Source: Ignavibacteriales bacterium (lineage in GTDB: Bacteria > Bacteroidota > Ignavibacteria > Ignavibacteriales > Ignavibacteriaceae). Taken from it: DNA of 38,344 bases. The notes beneath the pieces are model-generated. The model saw nothing but the letters and a program-made list of their open reading frames with translations. It searched no databases and was not told where the DNA came from. The stretch lies in contig JAGUYG010000059.1 in assembly GCA_020061465.1 (NCBI GenBank), positions 1-38,344 on the forward strand. The letters run 5' to 3'. Shown here piece after piece: positions 1,217 to 37,003 of this stretch. The position numbers and the translations under genes were made by a program. Within the stretch, counting starts at the first letter, position 1. Each line of letters opens with the position of its first letter.

Positions 1217-4200
1217 CTATTTTGCGAGAACCATCTTTTTTACGCTTACAAACTCACCCGCTTCAATTCTGTAAAGGTAAACACCGCTTGCTAATCCGCC
1301 TGCGGCGGACCTTCCGTTAAATTCTATTTCGTAATAACCGGTTTGTTTGCTTTCGTTCACAAGCGTGGTAATTTCTTCGCCTAATATGTTGAATACTTTA
1401 ATCGTTACGTGGTTATCCTTCGGAAGCTGGTATTTTATTTTTGTAACCGGATTAAACGGATTTGGGAAGTTCTGTGATATCGCAAATTCCTGCGGCAGCA
1501 CTTGCGTTAATGAGTTAAGCTTTTCATTAATAAATTCTTTTGTGCCGATAATTATTTTAAGCCTTCGTTCACTTTTCTTTTCCAATTCAATTTGCATCAG
1601 AGTATCGATTGGCAGTAAAGTTTGTAAATCGATAATCGTAGAATTAAAATCTTGCGGTATATTGCTGGCAATTTCAGCGTTAACTTTTACGATTGAAGCG
1701 TAGCTTGAATTAACAATTACCGCTTCCCATTCACCTCCGTCCTGATTTACTACAATACTTGCTGCTGACTTCTTTTTGCCGTCGCTTCCAACAATGTAGT
1801 ATTCCAAACCTCTTTCCAAATTTGGTGCGGTTAAGTATTCCAACTGCTCATCGGCATTCATCTGCCGTGATAATTTCTGTTCATTTCTTTTTACCGAAAA
1901 CAAAAGCTCACCGGAACTCTTACTGTCTTCAACTTTTAGACTTAGATACCACCCAATATCGTTAATAATTTTGGGCATCAACATCGGATAGTACTTGCCG
2001 AAAGTTTTAACGCGTATTTCATTAACTCCGGGTTCAACAAAATATCCTTCGCCGGGTCTCATTGTATTTGTAAGTCTGTATGATCTATTAACCGTATCGA
2101 ATCTTCTCAACATTACAGGCGGCTGTACTTCAACATCAAAAGTAAACGGACTCGAAATAGTTCTCCATCCTTCACCTTCAACAGTAATTACCGTATCGGT
2201 TAATCTTCGTGCCGTTACTGGATACTCAAATGTGTGGTTGATAATAAAAGTATCAACTAATCCTTGCACAAAGTATAAAGCTGAATTCGGTTGTATATAA
2301 TTAGCCTTGAATAAAGAGAACGAACCCGGTGCAGCCGGATTATATTGGTACAGCACCCATTCGCCATCAGCCATATTTTCTACGCCGCCGAAAAATTTGA
2401 ATATCCGATCTGTTGGAATTTCTCTGAAAGGAAATCCGAAGAAAACCCATTTTGTATTTGCCTTATCCGCTGTCTCAGCAGGAATTGAACGCGGCACAAT
2501 TATTTGCGGAGTAGTATAATTAATAACGATTATTTGCGGGTCCATAAGATTGAATACGTTAATTGAATCTACTACTTCCCAATCGTTGTTACGCACAACC
2601 AGTTCACCATAAAATATTATACCGCGGTGTGTTATCTCGCTTTCGGAAATAAGGTATCGTGATTTGCCCGTGTGCACCGCATACAGCTTATCGCCCGGTC
2701 CGCCTTTGAAGTACGGCACTCTAAAATCGAGTGCGGGCGAATCGCGGAACTCAAGCGTATCTAATTTTATTACAATCCTCGAATCCACTCTAAATTGTTC
2801 AACAGGGATGGGAAGATGCATTTCGTTAATCGTCAGCTTTTCTCTTATTCGTGTTACGGATTTTGTACTGTCGAAGCTACCTCTCAATTCAAATTCTAAT
2901 TCGTTTATTCCGAAGCCATCGTGCGAAATTTTTATTGTATCTAAATTCAACGTCTTAAAATTCGGAATGATATATTTAACCGGCACAACAACCGAATCAC
3001 CGGAATCAAGAAAGAAATGATAGAGGCTGTCGGTTGTAAGCTTAAAATAATTTTTTGCGAAACTAATTTTTATTTCGGCTTTATCGCTGCCGGAATTTAT
3101 AAGCAGAAAATTATCGTAGTTATCGGTAACCGCTTCAAAAACCTTTGATGATAGCACTTGAAGCGATTGTATCGTGGTTTCGGATATAACACCCCCTTTT
3201 CCTGAGCCAAATAATTTAATTCTTAAAATTTTATTAGGATACGAGTTTGTCTCCATTACAAGCTCCGCTTCGTTCATACCAAATTTTTCCGGTCTAAATT
3301 CAAGCGCAAAGTAACCGGAGCCGCCGCCCAATATGCTGTCGACCTTCATAAATACATTAAAGTATGCTGAATCTTTCCCGGATATAAAAATGGAATCTAT
3401 AATAAGTGTATAGTTTCCCTTAAAGTTATTCAAAAAGAAATCTCTATAACTATTCTTATTGTAATTAACAGAATCGAAGAGCAAAGTATCTTCTTTAATT
3501 TCAGCCACGGCTTTCATTAAAAACAGCGAGGCATCGAAAGATAACGAGTCGTTTCCTTCCGATTCATTAATTCTTGTGAAACGAATACGTGTTTTATTAA
3601 TTCCGTTCTTAACTTTATCGGTATAAAATTTTAAATAGAAATTATAAGATGAGTCGGGCGGTACTACAAAACTTTTTACTTGAAGATAAAATATGGAATC
3701 ATTCAAAGTAACTACGACAGAGTCGACTCTGAAAGGACTCTTCGAACGATTAATTAATGAAATTGCCGAAAGTGTATCAATTTCCTTCACGGACAAATTA
3801 ACCGTATCAATTGAAATTCTTTGTCCAAAGAAAGTATGATGAATAGTTTTGAATTTGAATGTTTCCGAAAAGTGACTCGAGTCCCCTTCTGCATTCGCAG
3901 CATAAATCCGCCAGTAAAATGTTGTGTCTGCATCTAATGAATCAAGCTGCAGATGAGCTGAAGCGGTAGTTGTATCAAGGTAAAGACTAATAAATAAAGA
4001 ATCGGTACTAAGCTTTATGTAATAAGTATCCGCACCAGTAGAACCAAACCATTGCAGCTCAACATTTAACGGTACTTTAACAGAATCTTGAGCAGGAAAC
4101 TGAAGCACCGGTGCGGCTAATCTTGTTTTGAAGCTGCTTATATCCGACCAATCGCTCGCTGCACTATCTACATTGAATGATTTTACCCGCCAGAAATATT

Positions 4201-4774
4201 TAATATTCAAACCAACATCGTTAAAAGTAATTGAGTTTTGTGCCAGCATTGTATCTATCGCTATAAAACCTAATGTAGAATCATAAGTAAGCTGAAGCCG
4301 GTAAAAAATATTTACGGTGTCCTTTGTCCATTCCAATGTTACGGTTGTATCTAAATTTCGAATTGAATCTTGAGGTGATAATAAAAGCGGAACAACCGGC
4401 AGCGGCGTGGTTCTGAAGTTCCATACTTCCGACCATTCGTTCTGCGCTTCCTCTCTTCTCACGCGCCAGTAGTAAGTAATATCGTTCAATAACGTATCTA
4501 TAAATCCATAGCCTCTTCCAAGATTTTGAATTTCGGTCGTTGCATCCGGTGTGAAAAGACTGTCAAAAGAATACTGCAGTACGTGGAATCTATTTTGCGG
4601 CTGGCTTTCCCATAAAAGGTACATTCTCAATGTAGGCAGGTACATTGAATTATTCGGCGGATAATAAGGTTGCGGAATGTTAGAGCCTTGCTGGGCTTCT
4701 ACAAAACTTTGACTGTTTAAAATTAAAACAAAGATAAAAATATATTTTCGCATAGTGTTCAAATCGGCTCTCAT
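1217..4774 (-). CDS. Large secreted Fn3-repeat protein with type IX sorting tail
   Basis: The product is an 1185-residue exported protein. After a signal peptide come three Fn3-like repeats, roughly residues 30-315, each ending in a YYWRV/FYWRI...FKT pattern typical of surface proteins in this lineage. A beta-rich region follows (about 320-640) that resembles ASH/DUF1573-type modules. The last ~85 residues (NFPNPFNPVTKIKY ... GVYLYRIEAGEF ... KKMVLAK) are a type IX secretion C-terminal sorting domain, so it is probably delivered to the cell surface or released. The start at 4774 overlaps the stop of the upstream gene by one base (TAATG), implying translational coupling; the ATG at 4753 (MRKYIFIF) gives a more normal signal peptide. 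It is the last gene of the 7980-1217 operon. A GC-rich palindrome interrupts the sorting domain at 1295-1309. Confidence 0.85.
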   Translation of the reverse strand: MRADLNTMRKYIFIFVLILNSQSFVEAQQGSNIPQPYYPPNNSMYLPTLRMYLLWESQPQNRFHVLQYSFDSLFTPDATTEIQNLGRGYGFIDTLLNDITYYWRVRREEAQNEWSEVWNFRTTPLPVVPLLLSPQDSIRNLDTTVTLEWTKDTVNIFYRLQLTYDSTLGFIAIDTMLAQNSITFNDVGLNIKYFWRVKSFNVDSAASDWSDISSFKTRLAAPVLQFPAQDSVKVPLNVELQWFGSTGADTYYIKLSTDSLFISLYLDTTTASAHLQLDSLDADTTFYWRIYAANAEGDSSHFSETFKFKTIHHTFFGQRISIDTVNLSVKEIDTLSAISLINRSKSPFRVDSVVVTLNDSIFYLQVKSFVVPPDSSYNFYLKFYTDKVKNGINKTRIRFTRINESEGNDSLSFDASLFLMKAVAEIKEDTLLFDSVNYNKNSYRDFFLNNFKGNYTLIIDSIFISGKDSAYFNVFMKVDSILGGGSGYFALEFRPEKFGMNEAELVMETNSYPNKILRIKLFGSGKGGVISETTIQSLQVLSSKVFEAVTDNYDNFLLINSGSDKAEIKISFAKNYFKLTTDSLYHFFLDSGDSVVVPVKYIIPNFKTLNLDTIKISHDGFGINELEFELRGSFDSTKSVTRIREKLTINEMHLPIPVEQFRVDSRIVIKLDTLEFRDSPALDFRVPYFKGGPGDKLYAVHTGKSRYLISESEITHRGIIFYGELVVRNNDWEVVDSINVFNLMDPQIIVINYTTPQIIVPRSIPAETADKANTKWVFFGFPFREIPTDRIFKFFGGVENMADGEWVLYQYNPAAPGSFSLFKANYIQPNSALYFVQGLVDTFIINHTFEYPVTARRLTDTVITVEGEGWRTISSPFTFDVEVQPPVMLRRFDTVNRSYRLTNTMRPGEGYFVEPGVNEIRVKTFGKYYPMLMPKIINDIGWYLSLKVEDSKSSGELLFSVKRNEQKLSRQMNADEQLEYLTAPNLERGLEYYIVGSDGKKKSAASIVVNQDGGEWEAVIVNSSYASIVKVNAEIASNIPQDFNSTIIDLQTLLPIDTLMQIELEKKSERRLKIIIGTKEFINEKLNSLTQVLPQEFAISQNFPNPFNPVTKIKYQLPKDNHVTIKVFNILGEEITTLVNESKQTGYYEIEFNGRSAAGGLASGVYLYRIEAGEFVSVKKMVLAK
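1295..1309. repeat. GC palindrome inside the sorting-domain coding region
   Basis: TCCGCC-TGC-GGCGGA is a perfect 6-bp-arm palindrome in otherwise AT-rich DNA. It encodes the AAGG part of NGRSAAGGLASGVY, where I would expect the tail to run from NA/NGS almost directly into LASGVY. It may be a small palindromic insertion tolerated in a surface loop of the sorting domain. Confidence 0.45.
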
Positions 4775-5400
4775 TAATTAGGTGATATAGGAATTCCGAA
4801 AGTTAAGCTTGTCTTTGCTGCCTCCGAACCTCTATCAGGCAATAAGAAATAAATGATCACCGCAGCAGCAGCCCCTCCAAGAAAATAATAAATAGCAGGA
4901 GTTATGCTGAAAGTTTTTTCTTCAACCTGCGGAGTATTTTGGTTAGTCTTCTCATTTAAATCATCTAAAGAAAATATTGAGCTGATTCCTACGTAATCGA
5001 TGCTCGACCCGATCGTAGGATTGAGACTGTGTAATAGAATCGATCCTCCGGAAAACTCATTTAAGGGATCCAGTTTGTGTAAAAACTTATCCATAGGATC
5101 CTTAGGAAAATTGTTATTTCGCATGCCTGCTGCAGGCAGGAAGGAGCGGAGTCCCGCAAAGCGGGAAGAATTCTTTACTAAATGCAAGATTTCTCTCCCG
5201 AATGCTTTCGGGATCGAAATGACAGAGGGATTTTTCATGCCGTCTCGTTTTAATTGAAAAGTATTTTCATTGGAAATTACAAACACATCCTCGTTGAAGA
5301 AAGTAACGTACGCGAATTGATTTACGTTTGCTTGCTGAGCTTTCGACAGTACCGCTCCAAGCATTAGTATTATGAGTATCATAGTAAATCTCTTATTCAT
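4774..5400 (-). CDS. Exported/membrane protein of unknown function with in-frame repeat insertion
   Basis: A 208-residue protein not recognised as a known family. It has a signal peptide (MILIILMLGAVLSKAQ) and a second hydrophobic segment near the C-terminus (AIYYFLGGAAAAVIIYFLLPD), so it is probably anchored in the membrane with most of the chain outside the cytoplasm. The start at 5400 is an ATG preceded by GAGGA. It follows the TonB-type receptor by 10 bases and overlaps the next gene by one base, so it belongs to the same envelope operon. The middle, roughly residues 50-95, is encoded by a string of palindromes listed separately and reads like a translated intergenic repeat (KNPSVISIPKAFGREILHLV). 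The ancestral protein was probably ~45 residues shorter. Confidence 0.75.
   Translation of the reverse strand: MNKRFTMILIILMLGAVLSKAQQANVNQFAYVTFFNEDVFVISNENTFQLKRDGMKNPSVISIPKAFGREILHLVKNSSRFAGLRSFLPAAGMRNNNFPKDPMDKFLHKLDPLNEFSGGSILLHSLNPTIGSSIDYVGISSIFSLDDLNEKTNQNTPQVEEKTFSITPAIYYFLGGAAAAVIIYFLLPDRGSEAAKTSLTFGIPISPN
5116..5240. repeat. Palindromic repeat element inserted in frame in a gene
   Basis: Three hairpins occur in a row: TGCCTGC-T-GCAGGCA at 5124-5138, TCCCGC-AAA-GCGGGA at 5152-5166, and TCCCGAA-TGCT-TTCGGGA at 5196-5213. The segment then runs on as GATCGAAATGACAGAGGGA. From memory, similar strings are dispersed intergenic repeats in Bacteroidota/Ignavibacteria genomes. Here the element lies wholly inside the 208-aa gene and keeps the frame open. 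Boundaries are approximate. Confidence 0.65.
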
Positions 5401-5410
5401 AACTTTTTCC

Positions 5411-7372
5411 TCAGATAAAAATCGAATTTAAGTAAAGATGAACTTGCAGATAAAATCTTAAATCGAAACGGGCGCCAATCGGATGGTATTTTTCATTCTG
5501 ATTAAAAATATTTCTGAAGATAATGCTGCCCCAAATTCGTTTGTTCCAAAACCATTTAGATGCCGAAAGATCGAGAAGCAAACCAGATTCAATTTCTTTA
5601 TTATATAATCCGCCGGATTGCGAAGAAACATACTTGTATGAAAACCATTTTGAAGGAGAAGTGTATCTCAACCGTCCCCATAGTGTGAAAGTTGGTACCG
5701 GTTTAAATAAAACAGAGTAGGTTATGGTGTGTGCCGGATACATTTTCCACAACTCTTTAAACAAGGAACTGCCTTCCAAATCTTTTTGAAAACTATAAAA
5801 GATTTTATGGCTAAGGGTTGAAGTGATATGATGCTCAAGTTCAATATTAAATGCGGAAACATCCAAACCAGCTTCCGAAAAAATATTAACAGGAGATGAA
5901 TAAAAAGTAGATTCATAAATGCGATATAAATACAACTGCCATTCAATGTTCTGGTTGATAAAACTTCGCCAGCTTCCTTGTATTGCAGCTTTGAATCTCT
6001 CCGATTTAAAAGAGTAACTTACATCGGCAGTGAATGTACTGCCGTTATTTATTTCGCCAAAGAACTGATAAAACCGTGGTTGTGCTTCTGAGAAATTGTA
6101 GCCTCTAAAGTACCAATTCCAATAACTGTCGTACTCGGAAAATAGATTTTGGAAATAAGCAAAATTCGATTCAATAAAATGCCCGCGCATAACTTCCCAT
6201 TTATTTGCAAAGAATCCTTTCCATAAAGTAATTTCGCTGCTGCCGAGAGCCATTATGCCTAAGGATTGCATGAAATTATCGGATAACCTATAAGAAAATT
6301 CACCATAGATTTTTTTATAAATCAAATCGGGATTAATAAGCGGCTCAAAGGGTTTCCCCTTTGTATAATCGTAACTCAAACCGGCAATTAAGTTAAAACG
6401 ACTTCCTGTAAGTTTTCCTTCGATCGTTGCACTGTAATTTTCGGTGGTAAAATCAAAATCAATATTTTTTTTGTTCTCCCATTCCTTAAGGCTGTTTAAG
6501 GAATATACTGCCGAATACCGCAACGATAAATTTCCTCTTTTATTAATACTGCCGCTTAAACCGGCATGACGATAAATCCGGTTAACGGGAATTTCGTTTC
6601 CATGGGGTGCAAAGAAAAAGTAATCATAACCCGATGAGCTTCCGTAGAAAATTTCGTTTTTGCTTTCTAAAAAATTAAATCCAAATTTACCATAGTATGT
6701 GCTGTAGCGTTCTTTATTGAAACTTGTTGATAGGTTTGCTATTCTAAATTTAATAGAAGGATCCGTTAGAAAGTTATCGGAATAAGTAGTTCCGCCTTTC
6801 AGATACCAATTAGCACCCGCCGCATCAATGCTTAGAGAAAGGATATAATTTATCTTGTCAACGTTGGGTGAAGAATATTCGGTAAACTTATACGGACCCG
6901 GATCACCCGTTTCGTTACCTACACTGTGCATCCCTTGAACAGAAAATCCTTTCTCAGCTTTTTTTGTATGGATATGAATTAAACCCCGACCGGTAAAATT
7001 ACCAAAATAGATTTGCGGCATGTTGATCAACTCAACATAATCAATTTGATTTAGCGCTACAGGAATCATCGTAAGATTATATGAATCAAAAATATTTAGA
7101 TTAAGCGGCTGTCCGTCTAACAGAACCGTATAATTTTGATTTTTGTTTAAAGACAAATAGCTCGAGGAAAGATATGCAGTAACGCCGTCAATTGTTGTGA
7201 GGTTCCATTTATCCGATAACGCAATAATATCTGCCAGGGTGAAAGCCCCGCCATCTTTAATCATCTCTTCGGTAATTACCTGACGAAAAGAGGATTGCGC
7301 ATCGAGCGTAGAATCCTGCGCTACAGAAAACGCCGGAAAAATAAACAACAGCGGATATATAAATTTTTTCAA
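5411..7372 (-). CDS. TonB-dependent receptor-like outer membrane protein
   Basis: A 653-residue outer membrane protein. After a signal peptide (FIYPLLFIFPAFSVAQ) comes a plug-type domain at about residues 30-140. Recognisable parts are FRQVITEEMIKDGG, the LLDGQPLN strand and the VELINMPQ...YFGNFTGRGLIHIHTKK ending. The remaining ~500 residues are aromatic-rich alternating strands ending in a beta-strand, as in a 22-strand barrel. No TonB box is obvious, and no carboxypeptidase-like extension precedes the plug. The start is TTG at 7372, overlapping the upstream stop (TTGA), with AAGGA nine bases upstream inside that gene, so translation is coupled. The substrate cannot be read from the sequence. 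The neighbours are envelope proteins, not a SusD partner, so a polysaccharide-uptake pair is not supported. Confidence 0.8.
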   Translation of the reverse strand: MKKFIYPLLFIFPAFSVAQDSTLDAQSSFRQVITEEMIKDGGAFTLADIIALSDKWNLTTIDGVTAYLSSSYLSLNKNQNYTVLLDGQPLNLNIFDSYNLTMIPVALNQIDYVELINMPQIYFGNFTGRGLIHIHTKKAEKGFSVQGMHSVGNETGDPGPYKFTEYSSPNVDKINYILSLSIDAAGANWYLKGGTTYSDNFLTDPSIKFRIANLSTSFNKERYSTYYGKFGFNFLESKNEIFYGSSSGYDYFFFAPHGNEIPVNRIYRHAGLSGSINKRGNLSLRYSAVYSLNSLKEWENKKNIDFDFTTENYSATIEGKLTGSRFNLIAGLSYDYTKGKPFEPLINPDLIYKKIYGEFSYRLSDNFMQSLGIMALGSSEITLWKGFFANKWEVMRGHFIESNFAYFQNLFSEYDSYWNWYFRGYNFSEAQPRFYQFFGEINNGSTFTADVSYSFKSERFKAAIQGSWRSFINQNIEWQLYLYRIYESTFYSSPVNIFSEAGLDVSAFNIELEHHITSTLSHKIFYSFQKDLEGSSLFKELWKMYPAHTITYSVLFKPVPTFTLWGRLRYTSPSKWFSYKYVSSQSGGLYNKEIESGLLLDLSASKWFWNKRIWGSIIFRNIFNQNEKYHPIGARFDLRFYLQVHLYLNSIFI

Positions 7373-35689: not shown

Positions 35690-36085
35690 ACTTGGGTAAT
35701 TAACATCAAAAGCGGATGGGATAATGAAATCAATCAAATACTTTTACGATTTTAATCGATGAGAGCTATAAAAAAAATATTCAAAAAAAACATTTAATAA
35801 CTCGTGTTACGTAAAAATCTAAGTGTTAGAAAAAAAATCAGAACGTAAAGACGGGGTAACTTGTCCCGAATGCTTTTCCTAAAGAACCTTTGGTCGGGAT
35901 GCCCCGTCTCTACAACCGTATAACACCTAACCAATTAAATAATTTGATAATTATTTCAAACATTTTGGGGCAAATTTGCGTAAGGTGAGTTAATAACAAC
36001 ACCCCGAAAGGTTAATCAATGATCGGAGTGTTGGATTCGTAAAGATAAATCACTGGTATTAATTAATAATTATATGGAGTTAGTC
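35690..36085. other. Repeat-filled intergenic region before the sorting-tail gene
   Basis: Almost all of this gap is structured non-coding DNA: the MITE-like copy 2 (35793-35997) and then an 11-base near-perfect hairpin, CAACACCCCGA (35997-36007) with TCGGAGTGTTG (36023-36033). No gene is seen. The promoter for the next gene should lie in about 36030-36070. Confidence 0.55.
35793..35997. mobile_element. MITE-like element with terminal inverted repeats (copy 2)
   Basis: The left end TAATAACTCGTGTTACGTAA (35795-35814) and the reverse complement of the right end TTGCGTAAGGTGAGTTAATAA (35976-35996) agree at about 16 of 22 aligned positions. The interior is a nested hairpin: AGACGGGG (35849-35856) with CCCCGTCT (35902-35909), and inside it TCCCGA (35864-35869) with TCGGGA (35894-35899). 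The right end is identical over 19 bases to that of copy 1, but the cargo differs. Confidence 0.55.
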
Positions 36086-37003
36086 ATGAGTAAATGCATG
36101 TACAAAATATTTTTTATTGCTGCCATTTTATTGCAGCAAATAATTTATGCTCAAATTCCAAATCCCTCGTTTGAGAATTGGACAGACGGTGAACCGGATG
36201 GGTGGTTTACACCAAATGTTCCCGGATTTTTAACAGTTGTAGAGCAAACGACTGATGCCCATTCAGGTTCATTTGCCGTAAGAGGCGAAGTCAAAAGCCT
36301 AAGTGGTTTCAACATACCACCGGCAATTACTCCAGCCGAGGGTGAAGAGCCAGGTATTCCTATTTCGGTACGATATTATTCATTAAGTGGATACTTCAAG
36401 TTTTTCCCCGTCGAAGGAGATCAATTAACAATTAGCGTAGGAATGTACAAGAACGGTAATCTTATTGGTTACGGAGGCGGATATATTTCGGCAACTACAT
36501 CTAATTATACTTATTTTGCCGAAAATATTACCTATATCACTGAAGAAATTCCTGATACTTTAATCCTTATGATAACCATTTGCGGAGTTGGAGGAACAAT
36601 CGACTTATCATTTCATGCAGGAACAGTTTATTATGCAGATGATCTTGCTGTTTCTACGAATCCGGTAAGTGTTGATGACAATGGATCTAAATTAAATTTA
36701 TTCTCGCTTAAACAAAATTATCCCAATCCTTTTAATCCAACAACAAAAATAAAATTTACGCTTCCCCATTCTTCTTACTCTGGAGATGAACAGGGGGTGA
36801 GATCGGTAACATTGAAAGTGTATGACATACTCGGTAACGAGGTTGCATCACTATTAAATGAAGAATTAGCACCCGGAATTTATGAGGTGGAATTTTCCGT
36901 AGGATCCTTTGGAAATGCCGCAGACTTATCAAGCGGAGTTTATTTTTACCAACTTCAAGCGGGGGATTTTATCGAAACAAAGAAGATGGTATTGATGCGC
37001 TAA
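36086..37003 (+). CDS. Secreted protein with type IX sorting tail
   Basis: The start chosen is ATG at 36086 (305 residues), with TGGAG six bases upstream; the earlier ATG at 36074 would place that ribosome-binding site inside the gene. A signal peptide (IFFIAAILLQQIIYAQ) leads to a ~190-residue beta domain beginning IPNPSFENWTDGEPDGWF. That is the usual opening of carbohydrate-binding-like jelly-roll modules in this lineage. The C-terminal ~85 residues (KQNYPNPFNPTTKIKF ... LKVYDILGNEVASLLNEE ... GVYFYQLQAGDFIETKKMVLMR) are a type IX secretion sorting domain. It is probably a surface-displayed or released binding protein; the ligand is unknown. It appears to be a single-gene unit ended by the repeat at 37009. 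Confidence 0.85.
   Translation: MSKCMYKIFFIAAILLQQIIYAQIPNPSFENWTDGEPDGWFTPNVPGFLTVVEQTTDAHSGSFAVRGEVKSLSGFNIPPAITPAEGEEPGIPISVRYYSLSGYFKFFPVEGDQLTISVGMYKNGNLIGYGGGYISATTSNYTYFAENITYITEEIPDTLILMITICGVGGTIDLSFHAGTVYYADDLAVSTNPVSVDDNGSKLNLFSLKQNYPNPFNPTTKIKFTLPHSSYSGDEQGVRSVTLKVYDILGNEVASLLNEELAPGIYEVEFSVGSFGNAADLSSGVYFYQLQAGDFIETKKMVLMR

Follow-up and report, generated by a model that had tools for sequence, protein, structure and literature searches.

A probable IS1182-type MITE with an inverted pair of TGTC-tagged hairpins, carried in frame in the linker of a small gene of an Ignavibacteriales bacterium

Introduction

Three described systems come closest to the element reported here. MITEPye1 of Paracoccus yeei is an IS1182-associated element of 159 bp with 18-bp terminal repeats and 4-bp direct repeats, which has no open reading frame (ORF) of its own, is foldable, and is presumed to be activated in trans by IS1182 elements (PMC11578231, in excerpt). 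CGTC- and TGTC-tagged REPs have been reported in Chlorobi and Bacteroidetes, some of them within ORFs and some within larger palindromes, and the CGTC-type REPs are said, in the excerpts of that source, to have no dedicated transposase (PMC3733652). The Rickettsia palindromic elements RPE-4 and RPE-6 are also CGTC-tagged repeats, and in many repeats the tag is altered to TGTC (PMC3733652, in excerpt).

We analyzed a stretch of 38,344 nt from an Ignavibacteriales bacterium (the window; contig JAGUYG010000059.1 of assembly GCA_020061465.1), where an original prediction had placed a palindromic repeat in frame inside a 208-aa gene and likened it to the Rickettsia elements. We consider it highly probable that this repeat is an IS1182-type MITE with an inverted pair of TGTC-tagged hairpins, inserted in frame in the linker of the small gene. 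As in MITEPye1, the family of copies has IS1182-like terminal repeats, 4-bp direct repeats and no own ORF, and since MITEPye1 has such ends and repeats, the class of transposon is a known one. Unlike MITEPye1, which is described as intergenic and present in one to three copies per chromosome, one copy here lies in frame within a gene, and the interior consists of a TGTC-tagged double hairpin in which further hairpins are nested (PMC11578231, in excerpt). With the CGTC/TGTC-tagged REPs, as far as the excerpts of PMC3733652 describe them, the element shares the TGTC tag, A-T as the first two stem pairs and inverted dimers; TGTC-AT...AT is found in most aligned copies, and the left unit of the window copy reads TGTT. 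However, the tagged REPs have a stem of 8-9 bp, a loop of 4-5 bases and a CCA-like tail, whereas our comparison by eye on the alignments gives a stem of ~5 bp, long nested loops and a CT tail, and we therefore call the core REP-like and not a member of that group; the dimer is, in addition, enclosed here by IS1182-type ends with 4-bp repeats, unlike the tagged REPs of that source.

The likeness to Rickettsia holds in part. A palindromic element of ~150 bp adds in-frame residues to a protein in both (PMC10969869, in excerpt), the frame being kept, and the TGTC-tagged core recalls the CGTC-tagged RPE-4 and RPE-6 (PMC3733652, in excerpt). The likeness does not extend to frequent residence in genes, since nearly half of the Rickettsia elements are reported in ORFs (PMC10969869, in excerpt) and we find one clear case (in the window) and one possible case (contig C117) among 25 loci of the genome, nor does it extend to the likely machinery, for which the IS1182-type ends and the 4-bp repeats speak here. 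Both intragenic REPs and MITEs of IS1182 flanked by 4-bp repeats have been published before, and what is new is the combination of IS1182-type ends with a TGTC-tagged double hairpin, and the in-frame copy. Among the papers listed by our literature searches, on palindromes and MITEs of Ignavibacteria, intragenic REPs of Bacteroidetes, MITEs and target duplications of IS1182, and in-frame palindromes with the T9SS, with few subscription papers included, there was no report of the element or of the 18-bp insert described below.

Results

The small gene is part of a tight operon

The 208-aa gene sits in a tight, coupled operon, as had been predicted, between genes for proteins of 653 aa and 1185 aa and with TAATG as the junction to the gene downstream.

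1217..4774, minus strand: downstream operon gene, 1185 aa, with a T9SS sorting tail (Por_Secre_tail, 32.2 bits, cut-off 27)
4774..5400, minus strand: host gene, 208 aa, an ORF
5411..7372, minus strand: upstream operon gene, 653 aa, outer-membrane type (weak match to a TonB-receptor plug, below cut-off)

The 208-aa frame (4774-5400, minus strand) is uninterrupted through the hairpins, and a ribosome-binding-like site, GAGGAAAA, stands upstream of its start. The protein has a signal-peptide-like start, a variable linker, a C-terminal hydrophobic helix and a TFGxPxxP tail; it gave no match in a Pfam search, and an Rfam search of 4700-5500 gave a single, sub-threshold match. An AlphaFold model built with 11 sequences is of low confidence (mean pLDDT 55.8, pTM 0.25), with a helix at residues 168-186 (block means 67-89) and the insert mostly at pLDDT 50 or below, and this model is consistent with the insert being a disordered addition.

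The hairpins form the interior of a larger element with two possible left ends

All three hairpins of the original prediction are present (5125-5137, 5152-5166 and 5196-5213), and the fold of the region 5100-5260 is better than that of 198 out of 200 dinucleotide shuffles both as plus-strand DNA (z -2.38) and as minus-strand RNA (z -2.36). The ~125-base unit proposed around them (5116-5240) is repeated in the genome; it was drawn too small, since outer arms are common to copies elsewhere. The hairpins are the interior of a MITE of ~224 bp at 5023-5246, or of 5071-5246 if counted from an inner arm: the left boundary has two readings because the window copy has two left arms, and the start at 5023 is the more likely.

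5017..5056, plus strand: outer arm, a variant with an inset of 18-19 nt (agrees with the copy on contig C69 in 35 of 40 aligned columns)
5019..5022, no strand: left target-repeat candidate, GATT (three of four letters match the GTTT at 5247-5250)
5023..5246, plus strand: IS1182-type MITE, wider reading, 224 bp, residues 52-126 (arms and core common to copies in the same genome)
5071..5246, plus strand: IS1182-type MITE, narrower reading, residues 52-110 (from the inner left arm)
5071..5089, plus strand: second (inner) left arm, CAGTTTGTGTAAAAACTTA (by alignment with copies)
5090..5107, no strand: 18-bp palindrome, TCCATAGGATCCTTAGGA (exact match to TCCNNAGGATCCTNNGGA)
5112..5174, plus strand: tagged hairpin unit A (TGTT-ATTTCG ... 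AGAATTC-T), with the hairpins 5125-5137 and 5152-5166
5187..5224, minus strand: tagged hairpin unit B (AGATTTCTC ... TCGAAAT-GACA), inverted relative to A, with the hairpin 5196-5213
5225..5246, minus strand: right outer arm, in diverged form (agrees with the IS end at 12 of 17 letters)
5247..5250, no strand: right target-repeat candidate, GTTT (right end placed by alignment)

Unit B is part of a match of 30 bits (E 6.9e-9) to model R1 at 5187-5248, and the left half of the window copy scores 16.9 bits with the half-element model. The outer arm at 5020-5058 reaches only E 0.38 in the window with that model alone. When 5017-5056 (5005-5066 aligned) is compared with the arms of three other copies, it scores 45-51, against a best of 29 among 3796 other pieces of the window (4950-5300 excluded) and a best of 27 when each arm was shuffled 2000 times. 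The copy in the window shows wear: against the end of the IS1182 element described below it keeps 13 of 17 letters in either left arm and 12 of 17 on the right, where a search with the end pattern at up to three mismatches did not detect the end and alignment alone places it. Its candidate 4-bp repeat agrees in three of four letters (GATT/GTTT) when counted from the outer arm and in two of four from the inner arm.

Orthologs of the small gene lack the element

We collected 15 distinct orthologs that adjoin a homolog of the 653-aa gene, from other relatives and from named Ignavibacteriales, Melioribacteraceae and Chlorobiota MAGs. The first set came from 16 other loci with such a homolog, 10 of which had the small gene, which was absent at the further six (L085-L090); the second came from 39 of 72 named loci that were checked, 10 having the small gene and five of these repeating the first set. 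The start codons of two orthologs were set by hand, and no genome of the same genus was among the relatives retrieved. The orthologs are 126-176 aa long, so that the window protein is the longest. The expectation that orthologs would be without the insert was borne out, in that the element model matched at none of the 15 loci and no ortholog carrying the segment was found among them.

The original prediction had put the addition at ~45 residues (~50-95), and this needs revising to residues 52-126 or 52-110, i.e., ~60 to 76 aa. Together with one 4-bp repeat, the insert amounts to 228 bp (76 codons, from 5023) or 180 bp (60 codons, from 5071), and since both are multiples of three the frame is kept. 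In the aligned orthologs a hypervariable linker separates a conserved hydrophobic start from a C-terminal helix and a TFGxPxxP tail that are conserved as well, which is why the alignments show the window protein to be longer and do not place the insert to the residue. SILLHSLN, at residues 120-127 and encoded by the outer arm, resembles the ortholog strings SILLRLN, SILLLND, HILLCDVN and HLLTSLNP; this likeness would fit a native origin of the outer-arm part and so speak against the wider reading, but the DNA match of the outer arm is much stronger.

Copies elsewhere in the genome

The genome that contains the window (4.2 Mb, 122 contigs) holds further copies of the unit, as the original prediction had supposed. 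A search with the hairpin region as query yielded 46 matches with E values of 1 or less, many of them short; with a clean sibling copy from contig C69 as query there were 24, with E values of 0.1 or less. With the half-element model we found 37 half matches at 25 places (E 0.1 or below), one of which is an end of an IS. The alignment of copies (A2) holds 18 half-elements, mostly from 26 that were excised, some with trimmed ends. The outer arms GATCGAGACTGTGTAAAAA ... TTTTTACACAGTCTCGATC are common to copies, and they enclose two units in inverted orientation, TGTCATTTCGA...GAGAAATCT and AGATTTCTC...TCGAAATGACA, with smaller hairpins optionally present within. The 15 complete copies are 117-279 bp long, and the element, present in several copies, has no transposase of its own.

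An open frame is not inherent to the element. In a search of the host protein against the genome, six sibling places matched over the insert (E 2e-7 to 0.07), and each carries one or two stops in frame. Among the 10 complete copies longer than 150 bp, an open frame is present only in the window copy (two frames; taken as 5023-5247, one base over the final end) and in the C117 copy (one frame); such frames are not rare in short copies, since four of the five complete copies below 150 bp have one. We also surveyed 25 loci of the genome, drawn from the searches with the hairpin region and with the C69 copy, a set that differs from the 25 places of the model in omitting C37, C48:22783, C96, C120 and the IS end and in including five weak loci (C13, C17, C24, C51 and C61). 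A frame of at least 80 codons spans the element at 10 of these loci, and the window's frame alone was compared with orthologs; of the others, six are 80-135 codons long, that of C49 extends from the element into a frame of 443 codons, and one belongs to the C117 copy described below. The tenth, a 748-aa ORF on C24, was considered as a further in-gene case and taken as chance, its match to the element being only 22 bp.

Two siblings border on ORFs. The C117 copy (L006, 1469-1632) runs into a MORN-repeat ORF, with ATGACAATG in its right arm as a possible start, and from its sequence this sibling may be where translation of the MORN-repeat protein starts, its first residues then being encoded by the element. 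In the C6 copy (L005), two ORFs end within the element, one of them with an apparently cut type IX sorting tail.

It could be argued that the window's frame is open by luck and that no functional protein is made, the gene being a pseudogene in waiting. The host gene evolves fast, and in shuffles of the window copy a given frame is open in ~2% of cases, so that with ~25 copies one lucky open case would not be absurd. Against this, the start with its ribosome-binding-like site, the hydrophobic helix, the TFGxP tail and the junction to the next gene are all intact, and the window copy has diverged yet gained no stop. We regard this alternative as unlikely, and infer that the longer host protein is made and that the location of the insert, in a disordered linker, allows it to be tolerated.

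Ends, target repeats and a resident IS1182 element

Examination of 22 copies gave 14, besides the window copy, with both ends. Perfect 4-bp direct repeats flank 10 of these 14 (TGTA, TTTA, AATC and GATT once each, GATC six times), the repeats of three others agree in three of four letters, and in one they are shifted by one base. The end motif GAGACTGTGTAAAAA occurs 51 times in the genome at up to two mismatches, compared with 11 times for a reversed control, and 14 of the 51 matches belong to a different family with the ends GAGACTGTCGAAAAA. This second, MITE-like family is ~150 bp long and was seen at L296 and L298 (C24) and at G000:C113:22976-23124.

On contig C119, two perfect end motifs face each other and bound an element of 1729 bp that encodes a 492-aa protein with DDE transposase domains and a score of 396.6 bits to the IS1182 transposase model NF033551 (cut-off 270). 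This element is flanked by GATC on the left, and its right flank is cut by the contig end; a second end of the IS lies at the edge of contig C14, where 94 of 94 bases match, and the transposase gene was found once in the genome. Compared with the 17-bp ends of the IS, the C49 copy has one end identical at 17 of 17 positions, and two other copies match at 15-16 of 17. Since the ends of the best-preserved copies agree in all 17 bp with those of a resident IS, the copies are best explained as an IS1182-type MITE that is moved in trans, and we infer from these sequences that the resident IS1182 transposase probably mobilised it. A MITE with IS1182-type ends would have transposed into the fast-evolving linker of the small gene; the IS1182-family transposase, encoded elsewhere in the genome, would recognise the 17-bp ends and generate a 4-bp duplication, in many cases of GATC; and with the insert and one 4-bp repeat adding up to a multiple of three, the frame would be kept and the downstream part still read. 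The copies, the ends, the 4-bp repeats of the siblings, the resident IS, the open frame and the orthologs without the element are read from the sequences themselves.

Since the core resembles a tagged REP dimer, the element might instead be a dimer of the REP type whose mobility depends on a RAYT (Y1_Tnp), a single-strand transposase, in the way that has been proposed for GTAG REPs, and the genome has 10 Y1_Tnp matches. Single 10-mers resembling the core or the ends (one mismatch) were found near four of the eight RAYTs inspected, and the RAYT on contig C109 (G000:C109:59304-60327, L107) has end-like 15-mers (two mismatches, same orientation) within ~0.5 kb on both sides. However, no paired element was found at the eight places inspected of the 10 matches, other palindromes flank the RAYTs, the half-element model did not match in their surroundings, and 4-bp repeats with ends common to an IS1182 element fit a DDE transposase. 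We judge mobilization by a RAYT to be improbable. Two 18-bp palindromes also lie near the C109 RAYT. That the segment is ordinary coding sequence, palindromic by chance in a linker that is variable in all aligned orthologs, is next to impossible, as DNA copies occur elsewhere in the genome, arms included, and already refute it.

The TGTC-tagged core in relatives

At E 0.001, the half-element model matched in 18 of 59 genomes, counting the one that contains the window. In most of the 15 copies listed from relatives the core is bounded by other ends, and one, L267, has the same end. Several relatives (L231, L250, L256 and others in L230-L269) have a TGTC-tagged core between the inverted ends GAGACTGTTGCACAACT, GAGTTTCTGCAAAATA and GAGACTTCTGAAAAAT. 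These sequences are suggestive of a core that has come to lie between different ends from one lineage to another, as though several transposons had captured it. An IS1182 transposase above the cut-off was found in none of the 10 relative genomes with the core that were searched (two had matches below it), and 10 relative loci had no convincing ends matching the IS1182 element, with one word at two mismatches; support for the link in trans is therefore confined to the window's own genome.

Residence in ORFs was assessed at 40 relative places, which derive from 59 of 70 matches in seven genomes, the remainder being further partial matches in the same stretches. Among the matches listed, none of the 40 places lies wholly inside an ORF of more than 119 codons and nine lie wholly within ORFs of 85-119 codons; L256, one of the 40 listed, falls for nearly all of its length within what would be the N-terminal portion of an ORF of 320 codons with a putative start.

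An 18-bp palindrome in sorting tails

The 18-bp palindrome inside the window copy is abundant in its own right: TCCNNAGGATCCTNNGGA occurs at 120 places in the genome at up to one mismatch, compared with none for a reversed control and 0-6 in each of 58 relatives. GATC, its center, is also the commonest 4-bp repeat of the MITE. Of the first 47 distinct exact sites among the 120 places, 16 lie in frame within sorting-tail proteins, all at one position, where the palindrome adds SVGSFG or a near variant (six codons), and one more site is at another spot of a tail; at least 16 such genes of the genome thus carry it. Four of these 16 proteins were searched with Pfam; all match Por_Secre_tail, three of them above the cut-off. 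Three of five sorting tails in independently fetched stretches of the same genome are without the palindrome, and none of three in relatives carries it. Because 14 of the 18 letters are prescribed by the exact search, the identity of the copies is partly a matter of ascertainment, and duplication of sorting tails may be an alternative source of in-frame copies.

In the window itself, the 18-bp palindrome TCCGTAGGATCCTTTGGA at 36896-36913 is in frame in the sorting tail of another gene (ORF 36074-37003, plus strand), adding SVGSFG, and the IS1182 transposase gene (L300, ~890-920) has a GATC-centered, palindrome-like stretch that is read as SERSFGK.

Discussion

A broader possibility, which we put forward tentatively and hold to be less likely than not, is that palindromes of several sizes remodel secreted and envelope proteins in this lineage. 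The 18-bp palindrome would spread in frame and also serve as a landing site for the MITE, and the MITE would ferry TGTC-tagged hairpins and, in the window, have become part of a protein.

If our reading of the element is true, the small gene of this operon would show concretely that a mobile palindrome can turn into protein sequence outside Rickettsia as well, with the likely mobilising enzyme encoded in the same genome. The presence of tagged hairpin cores between IS1182-type ends would also bear on how CGTC-type REPs, as described in the excerpts of PMC3733652, can move.
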